Assembly: GCA_027306585.1 (NCBI GenBank)
Contig: DAHUZJ010000099.1
Location: 1-38,139 of the forward strand
Length of the DNA: 38,139 nucleotides
Reading direction: 5' to 3'
DNA from: Acidimicrobiaceae bacterium
Lineage (GTDB): Bacteria > Actinomycetota > Acidimicrobiia > Acidimicrobiales > RAAP-2
The translations under genes were made by a program, and so were the position numbers. The notes beneath the pieces were generated by a model. That model made no database searches. It had not been told where the DNA came from and worked only from the letters and a program-made list of their open reading frames with translations. This document shows positions 21,657 through 33,802 of this stretch, piece by piece; within the stretch, counting starts at the first letter, position 1, and each line of letters opens with the position of its first letter.

Positions 21657-23333
21657 TCAGGTCTCGTGCCAGCGGGGCGAGGTCGTGCGCGGCGGGAAGA
21701 GCGCCGCTCGGCACCGCACCAACCGGGGCTCCCCGCTCGACAGGGCGCGCCCGAGGGCGCGGGCCAGCGGGTCGCCCACACCCTCGACGTCCTCGGCGGG
21801 GATCCCGAAGGCGGCGGCGAGGGCCGGGAAGTCCGGCGTGCGGAGGTCGGTGCCCCGGGGGGCGGCCTCGTGGCGCTGGTCGAAGCGCAGCATGCCGTAG
21901 CCGCCGTCGTCGACCACGAGCACGGTCACGGGCAGCTCCTCCTGGGCCAAGGTCGCCAGCTCGCCGAGCGCGAACATGGCGCCACCGTCGCCGCACACGA
22001 CGAGGACCGGCTCGGCGGCCCCGGCCGCCGCGCCGACCGATGCCGGCAGCGCGTAGCCGAGGGTCCCCCAGCCCATGGGGTACTGGAGCCGCCGCGGCCG
22101 GGCCGGGGCGAGGTACCCGGCCAGCCAGTAGCCGGCGATCGCCATGTCCACCACGACCGTGGCCCGAGCGGTGGCCAGGTCTTGCACGATGCCGACGAGC
22201 CGAGTCGCGTCCGCCGTCCTCGGGTCGTCGCCGAGACGGCGCCAGACGCCGGCGACGACCCGGGGCACGTCGTCGGCGAGCCCGGACCCACGCCCGGGCA
22301 GCCGCCGGGCGAGCTCGGCGAGGGCCCACCCGGCGTCGGCGGCGACCCCGTGGACGGCCCTTCCGGGCACCGCCAGCCGCCCGGGATCGACGTTCACGTT
22401 GACCACTGCCGGCGGCAGCGCCAGGGACAGGTTCTTCGTGTTCATCCCGTCGAGCTCCGACCCGACGACGAGCAGGGCCTCGGCGCGGGCCAAGAGGGCT
22501 TCGACCTCAGGCTCGTGCGGCGGCAGCGGCACGAGGCAGGGGTGCTCCGGGGGGAGGAGGCCCCGACCGGCGAAGGTGGTGAGGACGGGTGCCCGGAGCC
22601 GTTCCGCCACGAGGGCCAGCGCCGCCGCGGCATCCGCCTGCACCACGCCGCCGCCGGCCCACACGGCCACCGTCGCCGCCCCGGCCAGCACCGCAGCGGC
22701 TTGCTCGAGCCCGGCGGGGTCCTGCGGCACCACCCGCGGCGCGGCAAGGGCACGGTCCGCCGGAGCGGCGGGTGCCGGCGCACCGAGCACGTCAGCCGGC
22801 ACGTCCACGTACACCGGACCCTGTGGGGCGGTCATCGCCTGCCGGATGGCGGCGGCGACGTCGGCCACGGCGTCGTCGGGCGTCCTCGGCGTGAACACGG
22901 CCTTCGCGAGGGGGCGGAACATGCCCGCCTGGTCGGACGACTGGTGGAGGGCGCCCCGCACCCCGGCCTCGACCACGGCGCGGGGGACCTCGCTGGCGAC
23001 CAGGACCACCGGCGAGCGCGACGCGGCGGCCTCGCCGAAGGCGCCGGCAGCGTTGGCGGCGCCCGGGCCGGTGGTCACCAGGGCGAAGCCGGGTCGTCCC
23101 GAGGCGCGGGCGAAGCCGTCGGCGGCGTAGACGGCCGTCTGCTCGTGGCGGACGTTGACGATCCGGGGGAGCCCGTCCTCGGCACCATCGTGGCCGTCCT
23201 CCGGGTCCTGGCCGATGCGGCCCGCCCGCCAGAACGCCAGGTTGTGGACACCGGGTAGGCCGTAGACGGTCGCGGCGCCGGCGGCCGCCATCTGTTCGAG
23301 CAGGCGACCGGCGACCGTGGACGTCGTGGGCAT
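21657..23333 (-). CDS. Thiamine-pyrophosphate enzyme, acetolactate synthase-like
   Basis: A 558-residue TPP-dependent enzyme with the three-domain plan of acetolactate synthase and its relatives. Residues 5-170 are TPP_enzyme_N with the catalytic Glu64 in NVRHEQTAVYAADGFAR and VTTGPGAANA; about 205-335 is the central nucleotide-like domain; about 380-540 is TPP_enzyme_C with CGDGGAMFALGELA (447-460). The usual GDG...NN metal motif ends in Asp-Asp (475-476, VVDDGGYG) rather than Asn-Asn. An extra acidic segment (GQDPEDGHDGAEDG, 41-54) precedes the Glu. It probably decarboxylates a 2-oxoacid or makes an acyloin or lyase product. It is last in a same-strand run with an M24 protein and a split transketolase, 55 bases from the former. 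Substrate unknown. Confidence 0.85.
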   Translation of the reverse strand: MPTTSTVAGRLLEQMAAAGAATVYGLPGVHNLAFWRAGRIGQDPEDGHDGAEDGLPRIVNVRHEQTAVYAADGFARASGRPGFALVTTGPGAANAAGAFGEAAASRSPVVLVASEVPRAVVEAGVRGALHQSSDQAGMFRPLAKAVFTPRTPDDAVADVAAAIRQAMTAPQGPVYVDVPADVLGAPAPAAPADRALAAPRVVPQDPAGLEQAAAVLAGAATVAVWAGGGVVQADAAAALALVAERLRAPVLTTFAGRGLLPPEHPCLVPLPPHEPEVEALLARAEALLVVGSELDGMNTKNLSLALPPAVVNVNVDPGRLAVPGRAVHGVAADAGWALAELARRLPGRGSGLADDVPRVVAGVWRRLGDDPRTADATRLVGIVQDLATARATVVVDMAIAGYWLAGYLAPARPRRLQYPMGWGTLGYALPASVGAAAGAAEPVLVVCGDGGAMFALGELATLAQEELPVTVLVVDDGGYGMLRFDQRHEAAPRGTDLRTPDFPALAAAFGIPAEDVEGVGDPLARALGRALSSGEPRLVRCRAALFPPRTTSPRWHET

Positions 23334-23388
23334 GCCTGCGATGTTGCCACGGCCGCCGCTGCGCCCGTCGTGGCGGGCGCAGCGGGGC

Positions 23389-24780
23389 TCAGCCCCGATC
23401 GGTCCCCAGCGGCCCGACGCCGAGCGGGTCGCCGAACCCCGTCCAGTAGCGGGTGCCGGCGACGAGCAGCTCGCCGGCGGGGAAGCGGGTGATGACCCGG
23501 CACCCGGTGTCGGTGACCACGACCTCCTCCTCGATGCGGGCGGCGGCGCTGCCGTCCTCCGTGGGCCAGTAGGTCTCCAGGGCGAAGACCATCCCGGTCT
23601 CGAGGACGACCGGGTGCTCGAACGAGTGGTACCGGCTCATGAGAGGCGGCTCCCAGTTGCTCAGCCCGATGCCGTGGCAGTACTGCAGGCCGAAGGCTTC
23701 CTCCTCGTCGGCGAAGCCGAAGTCGGCAGCGGCCGGGAAGGCAGCGACGATCTCGTCCGACGTGGCGCCGGGCCGGATGCGGGTGATGGCATCGTCCATG
23801 AAGCCCCGGGCCCGGGCGTAGGCGTCCCGCTGGGAGCGAGAGCTGCTGCTCACGTTGAAGGTGCGGTAGTAGCAGGTGCGATAGCCGTTGAACGAATGGA
23901 TGATGTCGAAGTAGGCGGTGTCGTCCGGGCGGATGAGCCGGTCGGAGAACACGTGCGGGTGCGGCGCGCAGCGCTCGCCGGAGATGGCGTTGACGGCCTC
24001 CACCTCCTCGCTCCCGTGCTCGTAGAGGTAGCGGTTGACCAGGGCCACGCACTCGTTCTCGCGGACACCCGGCCGCAGGAACTGGTAGAGCTCGTCGTAG
24101 GCGCCGTCCACCATGCCGGCGGCGTGCTCCAACAGGGCGATCTCGTCGGTGGTCTTGATCGCCCGGACCTGCTGGAGCAGGCCCTGGCCGTCGACCACGT
24201 CGAGCCCTTCTGCCTCCAGGGCCCGCAGCACCGGCAGCTCGACCACGTCGATGCCGAGCGGCTCGCCGGCCAGCCCGAGGTCACGCAGGATCCCGGCGAT
24301 GCGCCGCGCGTTGCCCGCCTCCACGCCGACGTGCTCGGGTATCGAGCCGCGCCAGCTCGAGAGGCCCGCCCGCCACGACTCCTGGCCCAGCCAGTCGGCG
24401 TAGGCCCGGTGCTGGCGGGCCGACGACCCGATCGTCCAGAGGATCGGGTCCTGGCCGCGCGGGAGGAGCACGCAGCGGAAGAGCTTGTCCCGGGCCCAGT
24501 TCCCGATGTGCGTGCCGGTCGTGTACCGGATGTTGTTCATGTCGAAGAGGAGCAGCGCACCGAGGTCGCTGGCCGCAAGCGCCGCTCGGGCGCGCGCCAG
24601 GCGCGCGGTGCGCAGCCGCCCCATGTCGGTGCGATGCTCCCAGTCGACCGCGGTCACCGCCCCTGGCGACGCGATCGCCCCCGGTGCGGTCACCGGGGTT
24701 CCGACCGCCCGGTTCGCCGCCGCCACCGCCGCAGCGATCGACGCTGCCGAAAGACGGCCGTCGTGACTGACTTCGGTCAT
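23389..24780 (-). CDS. M24 (pita-bread fold) hydrolase-like protein with altered metal site
   Basis: A 463-residue protein of the creatinase/prolidase/aminopeptidase P family: a creatinase N-domain (about 55-200) and an M24 domain (about 212-440). The five usual metal ligands would be Asp, Asp, His, Glu, Glu. Here Asp292 (YFDII), His369 (YCHGIGL), Glu402 (FALETYWP) and Glu417 (RIEEEV) are present. The second Asp, expected eleven residues after the first, is Cys303 (NGYRTCYYRTF). ALETYWPTEDG and GELLVAGTRYWT resemble the M24 group that includes DMSP lyase DddP, but DddP keeps the paired Asp, so I do not assign that activity. ATG 24780 follows GAGAGGGGG. It lies between TPP enzyme genes and probably acts in the same pathway. 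Confidence 0.8.
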   Translation of the reverse strand: MTEVSHDGRLSAASIAAAVAAANRAVGTPVTAPGAIASPGAVTAVDWEHRTDMGRLRTARLARARAALAASDLGALLLFDMNNIRYTTGTHIGNWARDKLFRCVLLPRGQDPILWTIGSSARQHRAYADWLGQESWRAGLSSWRGSIPEHVGVEAGNARRIAGILRDLGLAGEPLGIDVVELPVLRALEAEGLDVVDGQGLLQQVRAIKTTDEIALLEHAAGMVDGAYDELYQFLRPGVRENECVALVNRYLYEHGSEEVEAVNAISGERCAPHPHVFSDRLIRPDDTAYFDIIHSFNGYRTCYYRTFNVSSSSRSQRDAYARARGFMDDAITRIRPGATSDEIVAAFPAAADFGFADEEEAFGLQYCHGIGLSNWEPPLMSRYHSFEHPVVLETGMVFALETYWPTEDGSAAARIEEEVVVTDTGCRVITRFPAGELLVAGTRYWTGFGDPLGVGPLGTDRG

Positions 24781-24865
24781 GGTGTCCCCCTCTCCCTGTC
24801 GGGATGTCGCTCGGTGTCTCGTCTCATGGGTGCCCGGCCGGCGTGCGGGCGACGGGGCCGCCGCG

Positions 24866-25900
24866 TCACACCGGCGCGTACTGCCCGGTCTCGACCGCCA
24901 CGTCGTCGGCGGGCGGCGGCGTCCCGGGCCGGCCGAGGGCGCCCCACGCGGTGGCGACGACCGTCTGCACGTCCAGCCCGTGGTGGCGGAAGAGCCACGG
25001 TGCGCTCGACGCTCGGGCGAACGTGTCGAGGACGCCGATCCGGCGCAGCGGCGGGCCCCCGCCCTCCTCGGCGAGGACCTCGGCGACGGCAGAGCCCAGG
25101 CCACCGACGACGGAGTGGTTCTCGGCCGTGACCACCGCCCGCACCCCGGACGCCGCCTCGAGCACGGTCGCCCGGTCCAATGGCTTCACCACCGGGACGT
25201 TGACCACGGTGGCGGCCACGCCGGCGGCTGCCAGCGCGTCGGCCGCCCGCAGTGCGGTCGCCACGAGCATCCCCGACGCCAGGATCGCCACGTCGTCCGC
25301 GCCGCTGCGGCGCAGCCACTGTGCCCGGGCGAGGTCCAACCCGTGCGCGGGGCCGAAGAGCACCGGCACCTCGCCGCGCTTGAGGCGGAGATAGCAGGGG
25401 CCGTCGTGGTCGGCCAGCAGGCGGACCGCCTGGCGCACCTCGGTGGCGTCGGCCACGTCGCAGACCAACATGCCGGGGAGCGCCCGCATGAGGGCCACGT
25501 CGTCGACGGCCTGGTGCGAGGGGCCGCCGGGGCTGGACAGGCCCGGCATGAACCCGATCACCTTCACGTTGAGGCGCGGGTAGGCGAGCTGCAGGGCCAC
25601 CTGCTCGAAGGGTCGCCGCGTGGCGAAGGCCCCGAAGGTGTGCACGAAGACGCACCGACCGGCGCGCGCCAGGCCGCCGGCGACCCCCATCAAGTGCTGC
25701 TCCGACATGCCCACGTTCACGAACTGGTCGGGGAGCGCGTCCCGGACGAGGTCCGTCTCCGTCTGGCGGGTGAGGTCGGCACCGAGGGCGATGACCTCCG
25801 GCCGCTCCCGGGCCAGCTCGAGAAGTGCCGTGCCGTACGGCTTGGTGGTCGTCGTCCACGGCGGCTCGAGGAGGTCCGCCGAGCGCAGGTCGTTCGTCAC
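24866..25900 (-). CDS. Transketolase, C-terminal (pyrimidine-binding) subunit
   Basis: A 344-residue half-transketolase that pairs with the next gene upstream to bind TPP across their interface. The Pyr domain holds the activating Glu67 in VNVGMSEQHLMGVAGGLA, and FVHTFGAFATRRPFEQ and GLSSPGGPSHQAVDD line the substrate channel. The C-terminal domain (about 195-310) begins after LKRGEVP. Split transketolases usually take special sugars or ketols rather than the pentose-phosphate set; AptA/AptB of apiose breakdown are one known split pair, named only as a comparison. ATG 25900 overlaps the stop of the N-subunit gene by 4 bases, so the subunits are made together. The spacing to the M24 gene is 85 bases. 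Confidence 0.87.
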   Translation of the reverse strand: MTNDLRSADLLEPPWTTTTKPYGTALLELARERPEVIALGADLTRQTETDLVRDALPDQFVNVGMSEQHLMGVAGGLARAGRCVFVHTFGAFATRRPFEQVALQLAYPRLNVKVIGFMPGLSSPGGPSHQAVDDVALMRALPGMLVCDVADATEVRQAVRLLADHDGPCYLRLKRGEVPVLFGPAHGLDLARAQWLRRSGADDVAILASGMLVATALRAADALAAAGVAATVVNVPVVKPLDRATVLEAASGVRAVVTAENHSVVGGLGSAVAEVLAEEGGGPPLRRIGVLDTFARASSAPWLFRHHGLDVQTVVATAWGALGRPGTPPPADDVAVETGQYAPV

Positions 25901-26829
25901 GGCGCCGCGAGCTCCCGCCGGGCCGCGTCGGCGTCGCCCGGCCCGAGCGTGATGAAGTGGGTGTCACCGGAGCGAAGGGACGGGGGCAGCCCGCGCGACA
26001 TCGTCGTGCGGGCCAGGACCACCGACGGCCCGCCGGTGCGCCGGGCTGCGGTGAAGGCGGCGACGAGCGCGCCCACGTCGTGGCCGTCCACCTCGTGGAC
26101 GTCCCATCCGAACGCCCGCCACTTGTCGGCGATCGGTTCGACCGTGGTCACCGAGGCCACCGGGCCGTCGACCTGCGAGCCGTTGCAGTCGAAGACCGCG
26201 GTCAGTCCCGTCAGCTGCCGGTGGGCGGCGAACATGGCCGCCTCCCACACCTGGCCCTCCTCCAGCTCGCCGTCGCTGCAGAAGGCGTACGTCCGCCGGT
26301 CCGCCCCGACGAGGGTGGCTGCGAGCGCCAGTCCCGCGGCGACCGACAGGCCCTGCCCCAGGGCGCCGCACGTGGCGGCCAGCAGCGGGGTCCGTTCCGT
26401 GGAGATGCTCTCGAGCCAGCTCCCGTCCGTCCCGTAGGTCGCGAGGGCCGCCTCGTCGAGGAGGCCGGCGTCGGCGGCGGCGGCGTAGTGGGAGATGACG
26501 TAGTGGCCGGGCGAGAGGACGACGTAGTCGGTGCCGTGGCGCACGACCGCGCGGTACAGGACGGCGAAGACCTCGGCCGAGGACATGGCCTGCCCGAGGT
26601 AGCCGAGCCCGCTGGGCGCCACCATCTCGACGGCCCGCCGCCGGATCCGCCGGGCCGCCGCCGCCAGCTCGCCGGGATCACTGGTGGGCGGGCGGCGTGC
26701 CGCGAGGGGCGCCAGGACCTCGGCGGGCGCGGTCCGCCACACGCCACCGCCGACCGGGCTGGCCACGGCGACGTCGCCGATGGCCGCGTTCGTGCCGTCG
26801 GTCACCCTGCCGGCCACCCTGCCGGCCAC
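25897..26829 (-). CDS. Transketolase, N-terminal (diphosphate-binding) subunit
   Basis: A 310-residue TPP diphosphate-binding subunit. LSPGHYVISHYAA (105-117) is the substrate-phosphate side, and CSDGELEEGQVWEA (184-197) with Asp186 and then Asn216 (DCNGSQ) forms the Mg-TPP motif; the usual GDGE is SDGE here. About 55 unusual residues precede the family start (ELAAAARRIRRRAVEMV). The start is uncertain: the frame opens with GTGs in a 12-base repeat (GTGGCCGGCAGG, two copies at 26806-26829) coding VAGR twice, and no good ribosome site is seen, so translation may begin at 26805 or later. It is first in the run and divergent from a GntR gene. Its stop overlaps the C-subunit start. Confidence 0.85.
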   Translation of the reverse strand: MAGRVAGRVTDGTNAAIGDVAVASPVGGGVWRTAPAEVLAPLAARRPPTSDPGELAAAARRIRRRAVEMVAPSGLGYLGQAMSSAEVFAVLYRAVVRHGTDYVVLSPGHYVISHYAAAADAGLLDEAALATYGTDGSWLESISTERTPLLAATCGALGQGLSVAAGLALAATLVGADRRTYAFCSDGELEEGQVWEAAMFAAHRQLTGLTAVFDCNGSQVDGPVASVTTVEPIADKWRAFGWDVHEVDGHDVGALVAAFTAARRTGGPSVVLARTTMSRGLPPSLRSGDTHFITLGPGDADAARRELAAP

Positions 26830-26838
26830 CCTGCAATC

Positions 26839-26857
26839 TGGCCAACTGGCTGAGCCA
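26839..26857. promoter_or_regulatory. Candidate GntR/FCD operator upstream of the transketolase operon
   Basis: TGGCTGAGCCA (26847-26857) is an inverted repeat, TGGC-N3-GCCA. It matches the 11-base spacing of FadR-subfamily GntR operators (TNGT-N3-ACNA in general form). The palindrome TGGCCA precedes it at 26839-26844. It stands 10 to 28 bases in front of the transketolase GTG and in the 189-base gap shared with the divergent FCD-type GntR gene. The link to that regulator is inference. Confidence 0.4.
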
Positions 26858-26895
26858 CTTCGATGTCCTACGTCGGCCTAGGCTCTCCTGTCAAG

Positions 26896-26927
26896 GGCCC
26901 GGCCCGGCCCGGCCCGGCCCGGCCCGG
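26896..26927. repeat. GGCCC simple repeat
   Basis: Six consecutive copies of GGCCC (plus GG) in the promoter gap between the transketolase operon and the GntR gene. It is probably a slippage tract; whether its length varies between strains, and so affects expression of the divergent genes, is unknown. Confidence 0.85.
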
Positions 26928-27018
26928 TCGGCTCGCCGTGCAGCCTGGGCGGTCCGGCGGTCCCATTCAGCCCGGTCACCCTGCGCCCGACCCCACGACC
27001 GAGAAACGGAGGACCAGC

Positions 27019-27810
27019 GTGGACGCAGCGAGCGACTCGTCGCCCCTCCGCCGCGTGCCCTCGGCCGCCTTCCGCCCTGTGGCGAGGCGTCGGCTGGCCG
27101 ACGAGATCGTCGAACAGGTGAGGCGGCTCCTCGTCGAGGAGGGCCTCACCGAGGGCGACCGGTTGCCGTCGGAGCGGGACCTGGCCGCCCGGGTGGGGGC
27201 CAGCCGTGCGGTCGTCGCCCAGGCCTTGCGCACCCTGTCGCTCATGGGACTGGTGGAGATCCGTCCCGGCTCCGGCGCCTACGTGCTGCGGGACCCTGCC
27301 ACGATGGTGCGGGCGTCGGTCGACCTCATGCTGGACCTGCGCGAAGGGTCGCTCGCGCATCTCTGCGAGCTCCGGTTGTGGCTCGAGACGATCGGTGCCG
27401 TGGAGGCCGCCCGCCGGCCGGACGCAGGGCTCTACCGGCGCCTGGCCGGCGCGCTCGACCGTCTCGTCGGCAGCGAGGGCAACCCGTCGTCGCTCGTGGC
27501 CGCCGACACGAACTTCCACGCCCTCGTGGTGGCGGGAGCGGGCAACCCCTACCTGACCACGCTCTACGAGAGCGTCCACACCGTCGTCGTCACGGCCGAG
27601 TTCGAGCGCTGGGTGCGCACCGACGAGCCGCCGTCGTGGCTCGGCAACCGCCAGGGCACGGCGCACGACCGGCTCCACCGGCCCATCCTCGAGGCGGTGG
27701 TGGCGGGCGACGAGGCGGCCGTCCGGCAGGCCTTGCACGTCCACCACGAGGCCCTCCTCGAGCACCTGGCGATCCTGGGTGGCGCAAGCCCGGGTCGCTC
27801 CGGCCGCTAG
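27019..27810 (+). CDS. GntR-family regulator with FCD ligand domain (FadR subfamily)
   Basis: A 263-residue regulator. The winged helix-turn-helix lies at about 25-90: RRRLADEIVEQVRRLLVEEG, GDRLPSERDLAARVGASRAV, then VEIRPGSGAYVL. An FCD domain follows (LCELRLWLETIGAVEAARRP, DTNFHALVVAGAGNPYL with the Asp and His of its usual metal site, and DRLHRPILEAVVAGDEAAVR). FCD domains bind small organic acids or sugar acids. GTG 27019 has GGAGG seven bases upstream and is chosen over the frame start at 26863, which runs through the repeat tract. It is divergent from the transketolase/M24/TPP run, so it is the likely local repressor of that run; its inducer would be the pathway's substrate or an intermediate. 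Confidence 0.9.
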   Translation: MDAASDSSPLRRVPSAAFRPVARRRLADEIVEQVRRLLVEEGLTEGDRLPSERDLAARVGASRAVVAQALRTLSLMGLVEIRPGSGAYVLRDPATMVRASVDLMLDLREGSLAHLCELRLWLETIGAVEAARRPDAGLYRRLAGALDRLVGSEGNPSSLVAADTNFHALVVAGAGNPYLTTLYESVHTVVVTAEFERWVRTDEPPSWLGNRQGTAHDRLHRPILEAVVAGDEAAVRQALHVHHEALLEHLAILGGASPGRSGR

Positions 27811-31053: not shown

Positions 31054-31189
31054 ACCGTAGCCCACCAGGGGATGGTGCCCGCAACACGGTGGCGGCCGGG
31101 CGGTCGCGACCCTCGACCTCGAGGTGAGGTGGATGCCTCGGTGCGGAGTGGAGTGGAACGGCCTCCGGCGTCGGCTTAGCATTCTCGCC

Positions 31190-32137
31190 ATGTCTGCACG
31201 CTCCCGCGACCTGCCGCGCCGCTCCTGCCTGTCGACCCCCGGGGCGACGGAGAAGTTCCTGGCCAAGGCGCCCTCCGTCTCGGCCGACATGACGTTCCTC
31301 GACCTCGAGGACTCGGTGGCGCCGCTGGAGAAGGTCGGGGCCCGCAAGAAGGTCGTCGACGCCATCAAGAACCTCACCTGGGACGACCGCGTCCTGTGCG
31401 TGCGTATCAACGCGTGGGACACCGAGTGGACCTACGGCGACGTCATCGAGGTGGTCGGCAACGCCGGCGAGCGCCTGGACGAGGTGATGCTCCCCAAGGT
31501 CCAGTCGGCGGCCGAGGTCGTCGCCCTCGACCTGCTGCTCACCCAGGTCGAGAAGAACTCGGGGCTGCCCGTGGGCCACATCGGCATCGAGGCCCAGATC
31601 GAGACCGCCCGGGGCCTCATCAACGTGGAGGAGATCTGCGCCGCCTCGCCGCGGCTCGAGACCGTCATCTTCGGGCCGGCCGACTTCGCCGCCTCGATGG
31701 AGATGCCCGTGCTGACCGGCGGCGTCCAGGTCCCCGAGTACCCTGGCGACCACTTCCACTACGTGTTCTCGAAGATCCTCATGGCCGGCCGGGCGAACGG
31801 CCTCCAGGTCATCGACGGGCCGTACCTCTACGTCCGCGACCTCGACGGGCTGCGGGACTTCGCCCGGCGCACCCGGGTGCTCGGCTACGACGGCAAGTGG
31901 GCCCTCACGCCCGACCAGGCGGCCGTCCTCAACGAGGTCTACTCGCCCACCCAGGAGCAGTTCGACCGGGCATGGGACCTGCTCGAGGCCTACCGGAAGG
32001 CCACCGAGGAGGAGCGCAAGGGCGCCGTCATGTTCGGGGACGAGATGATCGACGAAGCCAGCCGCAAGATGGCCCTCAAGTTCGTGACTCGCGGCGAGCG
32101 GGCGGGGCTCAGCCGCTCGCCGTCGAGCGAGGCCTGA
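31190..32137 (+). CDS. CoA ester lyase of the HpcH/CitE family (malyl-CoA lyase type)
   Basis: A 315-residue beta-barrel lyase. LPRRSCLSTPGATEKF, then LDLEDSVAPLEK (metal Glu/Asp region), VCVRINAWDTEW, EVMLPKVQSAAEV, GIEAQIETARGLIN and VIFGPADFAASMEMP are the family's conserved strands. CitE-like proteins of this length in actinobacteria cleave (3S)-malyl-CoA or beta-methylmalyl-CoA, giving glyoxylate and acetyl- or propionyl-CoA. Actinobacterial members with the tail EEERKGAVMFGDEMIDEASRK sit in ethylmalonyl-CoA pathway clusters. It faces tail to tail the methylsuccinyl-CoA dehydrogenase-like gene, which supports that role. ATG 31190 is chosen over the earlier open frame because family members start at this point. 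The substrate is not proven. Confidence 0.85.
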   Translation: MSARSRDLPRRSCLSTPGATEKFLAKAPSVSADMTFLDLEDSVAPLEKVGARKKVVDAIKNLTWDDRVLCVRINAWDTEWTYGDVIEVVGNAGERLDEVMLPKVQSAAEVVALDLLLTQVEKNSGLPVGHIGIEAQIETARGLINVEEICAASPRLETVIFGPADFAASMEMPVLTGGVQVPEYPGDHFHYVFSKILMAGRANGLQVIDGPYLYVRDLDGLRDFARRTRVLGYDGKWALTPDQAAVLNEVYSPTQEQFDRAWDLLEAYRKATEEERKGAVMFGDEMIDEASRKMALKFVTRGERAGLSRSPSSEA

Positions 32138-32206
32138 GCCGGCCCGCCCCGGTGGGCGCCCCTTCGGCGCGGCGGAACCGGCCGGCCGGGCTCGGCCGGG
32201 CCCGCC

Positions 32207-33802
32207 TCAGCCTGCCCGCTCGACCAGCCGCCGGGCGATGACCTTGAGGGCCAGCGTCTCGTCGGCGCCCTCGAAGATGGACAGCACCCGGGCGTCGACG
32301 AAGTAGCGGCTCACCGGGTACTCCTCCGCGTAACCCATGCCGCCGTGGACCTGCATCGCCTCGCGGGTGACCCACTCGGCGGCCCGGCACACGTAGGCCT
32401 TGCTCATCGACGCCTCGAGGGCGCCCTCGCCCTGCCCCATGAGCCGGGCCACGTGGTAGGCGAGCTGGCGGGCGGACTGCACGACGACCGCCATCCGCCC
32501 GAGCTTCGCCCGGGTCAGCTGGTAGTCGATGATCGGGGCGCCGAACACCTTGCGCTCACGGGCGTAGGCGAGGGCGGCCTCGTAGGCGGCCTGCATGACC
32601 CCGACGGCACGGGCCGCCGTCTGCAGCCGGCCGTTCTCGAAGCCCTGCATCTGCAGGTAGAAGCCACGGCCGAGGCCCTCCTCGCCGCCGACCAGGTCCT
32701 CGGCCGGCACGAACCAGTCCTCGAAGGCGAGCTCGTAGGAGTGCATGCCCCGGTAGCCCAAGGTGTCGATGGGGCGGCCCTCGAGCTTGCCCGGGCGGCC
32801 GCCCTGGTGGAGCACGAACCCCTTGCCGTCGGCCGGTGCCTTCTCGACGAGGAAGAGCGACAGGCCCCGGTGCGCCTTCGACCGGTCGGGGTCGGTGCGG
32901 GCGAGCAGCATGAGCACGTCGGCGCGGGCGGCGAACGTGCACCACGTCTTCACTCCGTTGACGAGCCAGCCGCCCTCGGTCGGGGTGGCCGAGGTCGTGA
33001 TCCCCGCCACGTCCGAGCCGTAGTCGGGCTCGGTCACCGCCACCGCCGCCAGCACCTCGGCGGTGGCCAGCTTGGGCAGCCACCGGCGCTTCTGCTCCTC
33101 GGTCCCGCCGTGCACGAGGGCCCGGGTGAGGATCTCGGGGCGCGTGATCAGCGAGCCGCCGATGCCGAGCGAGCCCCACGACAGCTCCTCGGTCGCCACC
33201 ACCATGCCCAGCTGGTCGCTCTCGTCGCCGGTGGCATACCCTCCGTACTCCTCGGGGACCGACAGCCCGAACCCGCCGATCTCCGCCAAGCCGGTGACGA
33301 TCTCTTCGGGGATGTCGGTGTTGGCCCGGTGGACGTGCTCGGCGTGGGGCCGGACCTCGTTCTCGGCGAACCGGTGGAAGGTGTCGCGCACGAGGTCGAA
33401 ATCGTCCCCCAAGTGCCGGGGGCCTTCCTGGTCGCAGAGGGCGGCGAGCACGGCGGGGTCCCGGTGGGCGGTCACGAAGGGGCGCGCCCCGTCGAGGGCG
33501 TCGTCGTCCACGCCCCACGAGGCTGCCCGGCCGATGACGCGGCCGGCCAGGTCGGCGACGGCGTCGGCCACGAAGGCGCAGGCGATGCGGGCCTCGAGCT
33601 CGCCGTGGGCCCCGTAGTCGAGGACGGCCCGGGCCGTGGTCACCGCCGCCGCCGCATGGGCGAGGTCGTAGGCCACCACCTGCTGCTCGTCGATCCCGGC
33701 GGCGCCCACCTGGCGGACGGCGCGGTCGACGACCGCTTGGCACAGCCCGACGGCGTCGGCGGCAGCGGCGAGGTCCGGGGTGGGGAGGGTCTCGGGAGCC
33801 AT
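32207..33802 (-). CDS. mcd: Acyl-CoA dehydrogenase, (2S)-methylsuccinyl-CoA dehydrogenase type
   Basis: A 531-residue flavoprotein, about 150 residues longer than ordinary acyl-CoA dehydrogenases because of an N-terminal helical extension (1-145). The core shows FDLVRDTFHRFAENEVRPHAEH, FGLSVPEEYGGY, AVAVTEPDYGSDVAGITTSAT (FAD and substrate), RKVFGAPIIDYQLTRAKLG, MQVHGGMGYAEEYPVSRYF and the C-terminal LSIFEGADETLALKVIARRL, where other family members have YEGTNxIQ. Extended N-terminus and that ending fit the (2S)-methylsuccinyl-CoA dehydrogenases of the ethylmalonyl-CoA pathway, which make mesaconyl-CoA. The lyase and MaoC genes nearby would act later in that pathway. Ordinary branched-chain acyl-CoA oxidation is the alternative. 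Start is the ATG at 33802. Confidence 0.8.
   Translation of the reverse strand: MAPETLPTPDLAAAADAVGLCQAVVDRAVRQVGAAGIDEQQVVAYDLAHAAAAVTTARAVLDYGAHGELEARIACAFVADAVADLAGRVIGRAASWGVDDDALDGARPFVTAHRDPAVLAALCDQEGPRHLGDDFDLVRDTFHRFAENEVRPHAEHVHRANTDIPEEIVTGLAEIGGFGLSVPEEYGGYATGDESDQLGMVVATEELSWGSLGIGGSLITRPEILTRALVHGGTEEQKRRWLPKLATAEVLAAVAVTEPDYGSDVAGITTSATPTEGGWLVNGVKTWCTFAARADVLMLLARTDPDRSKAHRGLSLFLVEKAPADGKGFVLHQGGRPGKLEGRPIDTLGYRGMHSYELAFEDWFVPAEDLVGGEEGLGRGFYLQMQGFENGRLQTAARAVGVMQAAYEAALAYARERKVFGAPIIDYQLTRAKLGRMAVVVQSARQLAYHVARLMGQGEGALEASMSKAYVCRAAEWVTREAMQVHGGMGYAEEYPVSRYFVDARVLSIFEGADETLALKVIARRLVERAG

Follow-up and report, generated by a model that had tools for sequence, protein, structure and literature searches.

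Transketolases and E1 enzymes both act through the same enamine of the 'active aldehyde', so that enzymes of the two types could stand in for each other. Among described transketolases, the split-chain enzyme of Carboxydothermus (6yaj/6yak) is built from the products of two genes, and AptAB of E. coli SE15, identified as an apulose-4-phosphate transketolase (PMC13001218), is a specialised split transketolase of a catabolic cluster, with apiose kinase, ABC and SDR genes as neighbours. The M24 fold has likewise been turned to small molecules: ectoine hydrolase DoeA and creatinase are C-N hydrolases of osmolyte and guanidine catabolism, and the DMSP lyase DddP performs a C-X cleavage, the metal ligands D295, D297, D307, H371, E406 and E421 being invariant in the DddP family (PMC4108388). 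We here compare with these systems a locus in which a split transketolase-like enzyme and an M24 protein are encoded side by side. The locus lies in the window, that is, the whole 38,139-nucleotide stretch of Acidimicrobiaceae DNA that was analysed, and includes the following genes.

27019-27810, plus strand: GntR-family regulator with FCD domain, divergent from the other four genes; reading frame open from 26863; Pfam GntR and FCD over cut-off
25897-26829, minus strand: TKN, the N-terminal half (alpha subunit) of a transketolase-like TPP enzyme (PF00456)
24866-25900, minus strand: TKC, the C-terminal half (beta subunit) of the same enzyme (PF02779 and PF02780)
23389-24780, minus strand: M24-fold enzyme of a Cys-ligand family (PF00557 and PF01321)
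21657-23333, minus strand: acetolactate-synthase-like (ALS-like) TPP enzyme (TPP_enzyme N, M and C)

The five genes that the preliminary description had placed at 21657-27810 were borne out by reading frames, coordinates and Pfam domains, all five being assigned well above cut-off. TKN and TKC overlap by 4 bp, and the gaps are 85 bp between TKC and M24 and 55 bp between M24 and the ALS-like gene. The cut-off of a curated NCBIfam function model was reached by none of the five gene products. Downstream of the unit, a CoA-ester-lyase-like (HpcH/CitE type) gene at 31124-32137 and an acyl-CoA dehydrogenase gene at 32207-33802 were recognised by eye from their translations; this segment (31124-33802) is outside the conserved neighbourhood.

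Using the M24 protein as query and one genome per species, we collected 80 loci. TKN, TKC and M24 were recurrent neighbours in 21 loci, from many families of Actinomycetota, two MAGs of Pseudomonadota and one MAG of Bacillota. Pseudonocardia thermophila and Mycolicibacterium chlorophenolicum are examples of carriers that can be cultured. In the closest group, defined by an M24 identity of 63% or more, the locus of M24 nearly always contains TKN and TKC as well; the prevailing order is TKN-TKC-M24, and the same GntR is generally present. The three genes are some kilobases apart in L018, L020 and L022, where the locus is still common to them. Where a transketolase-type (TK-type) locus had full flanks, GntR homologues adjoin the TK-M24 genes in 12 cases of 16. 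We also surveyed 397 genomes of the phylum for TKN with an identity of 50% or more; only the window's genome and one other, G119, have it, and M24 adjoins TKN in both. The recurrence in 21 loci, together with the adjacent M24 in both TKN-bearing genomes, indicates an association beyond chance.

The ALS-like gene was found beside M24 in none of the 16 TK-type loci and in none of the 29 E1-type loci described below, all with full flanks. The closest relatives (L004 and L006) carry GntR-TKN-TKC-M24 without it, and homologues of the ALS-like protein (51% identity in G280, 46% in G025 and G053) are encoded among unrelated genes. As the gene is never beside M24 elsewhere and its own homologues reside elsewhere, the conserved unit is GntR plus the three enzyme genes TKN, TKC and M24, not four enzymes. 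Of the four genes proposed earlier as conserved neighbours, TKN, TKC and M24 thus held (21 loci, with GntR), while the ALS-like gene did not; likewise, the proposal of two TPP systems under one regulator failed in all 45 loci with full flanks and applies to this genome only. The ALS-like gene is probably co-transcribed with M24 here, yet stands outside the conserved unit. A four-enzyme pathway in which the ALS-like enzyme supplies a further indispensable TPP step would agree with its position on the same strand as M24 after a short gap, and with the presence of another ALS-like gene at a distance of about 14 kb from the second M24 cluster in the window's genome, but its absence beside M24 in 45 loci and in the closest relatives, and the unrelated surroundings of its homologues, make such a pathway highly improbable.

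The ALS-like protein scored 216 bits against acolac_lg (cut-off 538), missing the acetolactate synthase cut-off, and 286 bits against its best curated model, NF005712 (cut-off 500). Its cofactor motif, VVDDGGYGM, contains DD instead of NN. The altered motif had been read correctly in the preliminary description, but it is not special: DD is common to a 49-51% identical homologue and a Streptomyces group, and other homologues have ND.

As for the transketolase-like pair, the best solved relatives were 6yak (N component of a split transketolase) for TKN and 6yaj for TKC. The pair shares with the Carboxydothermus enzyme and other split transketolases the two-gene build, the TPP/metal residues, E67 and H129; the TPP/metal and catalytic Glu residues are kept throughout, with SDG...N, E67, H109 and H129 invariant. 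The difference lies in the sugar-contact positions (H30, H103, H469 and D477 in yeast numbering). Every canonical enzyme in the comparison, and the majority of the split ones, has H, H, H and D there. In TKN, by contrast, Y77 and I142 occupy two of the substrate-His positions, as in 21 of 21 clade members, and M118 and G125 of TKC replace His and Asp in every clade member covering the site, giving Tyr/Ile/Met/Gly for His/His/His/Asp. A tree of the halves placed the TKN-TKC clade on one branch (support 100/100), apart from the canonical transketolases and AptAB, confirming that the split transketolase is separate from the pentose-phosphate enzyme. AptAB, itself a long branch, belongs to another branch (96/94, with L095/L099), keeps both His of the N-half, and has the apiose kinase cluster in place of M24 as its neighbourhood. 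Scores of TKN were 89 bits against TIGR00232 (cut-off 682) and 181 bits against NF004559 (cut-off 488), both indicative only for a half-protein. A separate canonical transketolase C-half is present at a contig end of the window's genome, ruling out the idea that the TKN-TKC pair is the only transketolase of this organism. From the replaced sugar-contact residues, the clade of its own and the separate canonical enzyme, TKN-TKC is considered to be a transketolase-fold TPP enzyme with a probably non-sugar-phosphate specificity.

On a competing view, TKN-TKC would be a sugar-phosphate transketolase, either ordinary or AptAB-like, with the M24 protein as an unrelated peptidase riding along. The fold and TPP residues are indeed transketolase-like, and the sister clade is found in a sugar-type cluster (MFS transporter, TIM-barrel isomerase, SDR, DhaK-like kinase). 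However, all members of the clade have the four substrate-contact positions replaced, a canonical transketolase is encoded separately at the contig edge, AptAB groups elsewhere with both His retained, and the association of M24 with the pair extends over 21 loci of several phyla; we therefore regard this view as quite improbable. The sister clade itself (L140/L141) probably represents a further split transketolase specialised for sugar catabolism, its clusters including an MFS transporter, a TIM-barrel isomerase and an SDR, and in L141 also the DhaK-like kinase and a GntR. In the nearest outside group (L088, L091 and L089) the sugar-contact positions are partly altered too, and L088 and L091 are located in sugar-type clusters.

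The M24 protein consists of Creatinase_N and Peptidase_M24 domains with the pita-bread fold. For its model (pLDDT 83.6), the nearest fold was DddP (TM 0.78-0.82, 22-24% identity), followed by prolidases, DoeA and creatinase; DddP was also the best curated model, at 116 bits versus a cut-off of 600. Of the D, D, H, E, E ligands of M24 metallopeptidases, four remain (D292, H369, E402 and E417), and Cys303 takes the place of the second Asp. One altered metal ligand had been reported for this protein, and rightly so: Cys303 is invariant in 81 of 81 family members and is retained by two paralogues with 36% identity. Both His of PHPH, together with many residues nearby, are likewise invariant or nearly so. 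Aligned with the DddP ligand set, the window's protein has D292, I294, C303, H369, E402 and E417; Asp307 of RdDddP, a metal ligand (PMC4108388), corresponds to Cys303, and Asp297 has no counterpart. As ligands invariant within the DddP family are altered here, the M24 protein is not a DddP. It differs from DoeA and creatinase in neighbours and ligand set, at 18-21% identity. Members of the family, mostly annotated as 'Xaa-Pro peptidase family protein', are spread over Actinomycetota, Chloroflexota, Myxococcota, Pseudomonadota, others and plasmids. The two distant paralogues (36%) are encoded in the same genome at G000:C106:3501-4736 (L135, followed by an HbpS/GlcG-like gene) and G000:C120:349-1602 (L136), and both keep CYYRTF; the Cys-M24 superfamily extends beyond the present unit.

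The mode of regulation was then examined on the spacer between GntR and TKN, where two elements were predicted.

26865-26894, minus strand: putative promoter of TKN-TKC-M24, with -35 box TTGACA at 26889-26894, 18-bp spacer and -10 box TAGGAC at 26865-26870
26845-26859: predicted operator, a near-palindrome, ACTGGCTGAGCCACT (26844-26860, AAGTGGCTCAGCCAGTT; consensus AAnTGGCTnAGCCAnTT)

The operator is placed just downstream of the -10 box, and its 15-bp form has exactly one match in the 2.98-Mb genome of the window. TTGAC(A/G) boxes occur at the equivalent position in most related promoters. All 14 assessable loci with this GntR have the operator before TKN, whereas the 7 TK-type loci that lack this GntR do not; the sequence of one of the latter, L021, ends 330 bp upstream. 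The co-occurrence of operator and GntR gave a Fisher p of 8.6e-6, a value that overstates independence because the loci are related. By leave-one-out scan, the site in the TKN promoter was the top site of the locus in 13 of the 14 GntR loci, and that of the window topped the whole window; in the 14th locus (L013) it was second to a site before a LIV-type ABC operon. Further operator copies were detected in L017 and L019 before an LLM-type oxidoreductase gene, itself next to an aldehyde dehydrogenase gene, and these additional positions fit a catabolic regulon. A search of the window's own genome for a second operator gave only three one-mismatch sites, which are not claimed as operators because the reversed control pattern gave 15. 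The regulator thus combines a GntR HTH, an FCD domain and a predicted palindromic operator in its own divergent promoter. The operator is presumably bound by GntR, and the co-occurrence provides strong sequence-based evidence that GntR controls TKN-TKC-M24 and, in relatives, also a transporter and an oxidoreductase. The same spacer contains a run of CCCGG/GGCCC pentamer repeats (26899-26926) just upstream of the -35 box, and 18-bp tandem repeats were observed in the TKN leader region of G119 (L137).

Members of other M24 branches reside in operons of the order (GntR)-beta-hydroxyacid dehydrogenase-E1alpha-E1beta-M24-E2 in Ktedonobacteria, Myxococcota, Sysuimicrobiota and others. When an E1-type locus was defined by E1beta, 29 loci with full flanks were obtained; E1alpha was present in all 29, E2 in 22 and beta-hydroxyacid dehydrogenase in 25, and the gene order E1alpha-E1beta-M24-E2 was repeated in many. 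These PDH/BCKDH-type operons have in common with the window the M24 family, the FCD-GntR class and homologous TPP domain pairs, whereas the TPP pair of the window is of transketolase type and without E2. A few M24 relatives have no TPP gene nearby. With the E1-type branches in E1alpha-E1beta-(E2) operons, a single M24 family has two kinds of alpha/beta thiamine enzyme as alternative partners. In the M24 tree, the TK-type members group together without exception (support 100); after rooting on paralogues, their branch was located among the E1-type branches, with moderate SH-aLRT (86-88) and a long-branch root; this arrangement suggests a single exchange of the TPP partner of M24 in evolution. 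Both types of unit are present in the window's genome and in G119, and are side by side in L021 and L075; rather than replacing each other, the two TPP systems may therefore act on different substrates. In the window's genome, the E1-type version contains a second Cys-M24 (L134, G000:C40:59155-60396; 54%), with E1alpha, E1beta, aldehyde dehydrogenase, a further M24 protein, beta-hydroxyacid dehydrogenase and LacI as neighbours.

The position of the M24 gene directly between those for E1beta and E2 in many loci, and next to TKC in the TK type, could also be understood if M24 were a metal-free pseudoenzyme or assembly factor, acting as a structural partner of TK or E1. We judge this very unlikely, since D292, H369, E402, E417 and the His pair of PHPH are invariant or nearly so, as in a working active site. 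Another alternative is a true peptidase or amidase, which would act on a peptide-like or N-acyl substrate and set free an amino acid or a keto acid, the TPP enzyme only degrading that acid. The M24 fold agrees with it, as do the amidase and LIV transporter genes accompanying M24 on a Paenarthrobacter plasmid and a related unit on a Variovorax paradoxus VAI-C plasmid (L175:10251-14381), in which GntR-TKN-TKC (50% to TKC) is followed by amidase, penicillin-acylase-family and ABC transporter genes without M24, the amidase standing where M24 would be. In the TK pair of L175, the first His position is Y and the others are V/L/L. The closest fold and curated model, however, is DddP rather than a peptidase, one metal-bridging Asp is Cys throughout, and most loci have no peptide uptake genes; a role as peptidase or amidase therefore appears unlikely.

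Taken as a whole, the observations are best explained by a GntR-switched TKN-TKC-M24 catabolic operon in which the M24 product is cleaved by the TPP enzyme, an explanation to which we give about an even chance. In such an operon, a carboxylate inducer, either the substrate or an early intermediate, would release GntR from the operator. M24 would cleave a carbon-heteroatom bond of the imported compound, through a one-Cys metal site or with Cys303 as nucleophile, and its product, a small 2-oxo acid or alpha-ketol, would be split by the alpha/beta TPP enzyme. In the E1/E2 version, the 'active aldehyde' could then pass to CoA; in the TK version, the acceptor would be an aldehyde or keto compound. 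The beta-hydroxyacid dehydrogenase, present in most relatives and absent from the window, may handle the hydroxyacid or semialdehyde partner product. The claim of an undescribed GntR-controlled unit was supported by the conservation of neighbours and by the operator co-occurring with GntR. No report joining M24/Xaa-Pro proteins with transketolase or E1 genes in one pathway was found in a literature search that covered few subscription journals, and for this reason the unit is considered likely, though not certain, to be novel.

With respect to the substrate, RidA, amidohydrolase, amidase and branched-chain-amino-acid-type transporters are recurring neighbours; the first three favour a nitrogen-containing substrate, and the evidence points to a nitrogen-containing carboxylate at least as much as to a sugar acid or ketol. 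Ribose-type ABC transporters in L017, L019 and Phaeobacter favour a polyol or sugar acid in some loci. The transporters are not of the same type in all loci, and the substrate may accordingly vary as well. Should the unit prove correct, widespread 'peptidases' and 'transketolases' are misannotated and belong to one or two unknown catabolic pathways, and the conserved operator offers a direct handle on the inducer and thereby on the substrate. A bolder proposal, put forward tentatively and with clearly less than even prospects, is that of a new enzyme pair, in which a Cys-ligand M24 protein makes the donor for a transketolase-fold enzyme that is not a transketolase, its partner being swapped between PDH-type E1(E2) and TK type; the pair would provide a catabolic route for a common natural compound outside present pathway maps. 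A pantothenase role for M24 (pantothenate to pantoate, followed by dehydrogenases and branched-chain E1/E2) was considered as well. Its chemistry fits the E1-type neighbours; as no supporting gene or paper was found, it is kept only as one candidate.

Several plasmids carry E1-type versions of the unit. In Phaeobacter and Pacificitalea plasmids (L174, L176 and L179), an SDR-M24-E1alpha-E1beta-lipoyl protein-aldehyde dehydrogenase-E2 operon, with E3 too in Phaeobacter, is transcribed away from genes for a ribose-type ABC transporter, beta-hydroxyacid dehydrogenase and ThuA. Occurrence of M24 on plasmids of sulfonamide-degrading Paenarthrobacter raised the idea of sulfonamide breakdown. It was rejected, because heterocyclic sulfonamide products accumulate as dead ends in strains of this genus (PMC10873849) and because the reported sadA plasmid of strain SD-1, NZ_CP101187, is not the M24 plasmid. 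The M24 plasmid of Paenarthrobacter ureafaciens SD-1 is NZ_CP101190 (42 kb; L171/L180), half of which is a catabolic island. The island includes E2, fused E1alpha/beta, VOC, oxidoreductase, amidase, LIV ABC, RidA, cupin, enoyl-CoA hydratase, beta-hydroxyacid dehydrogenase, M24, flavin reductase and GntR genes; this strain is a good culturable entry point to the substrate.
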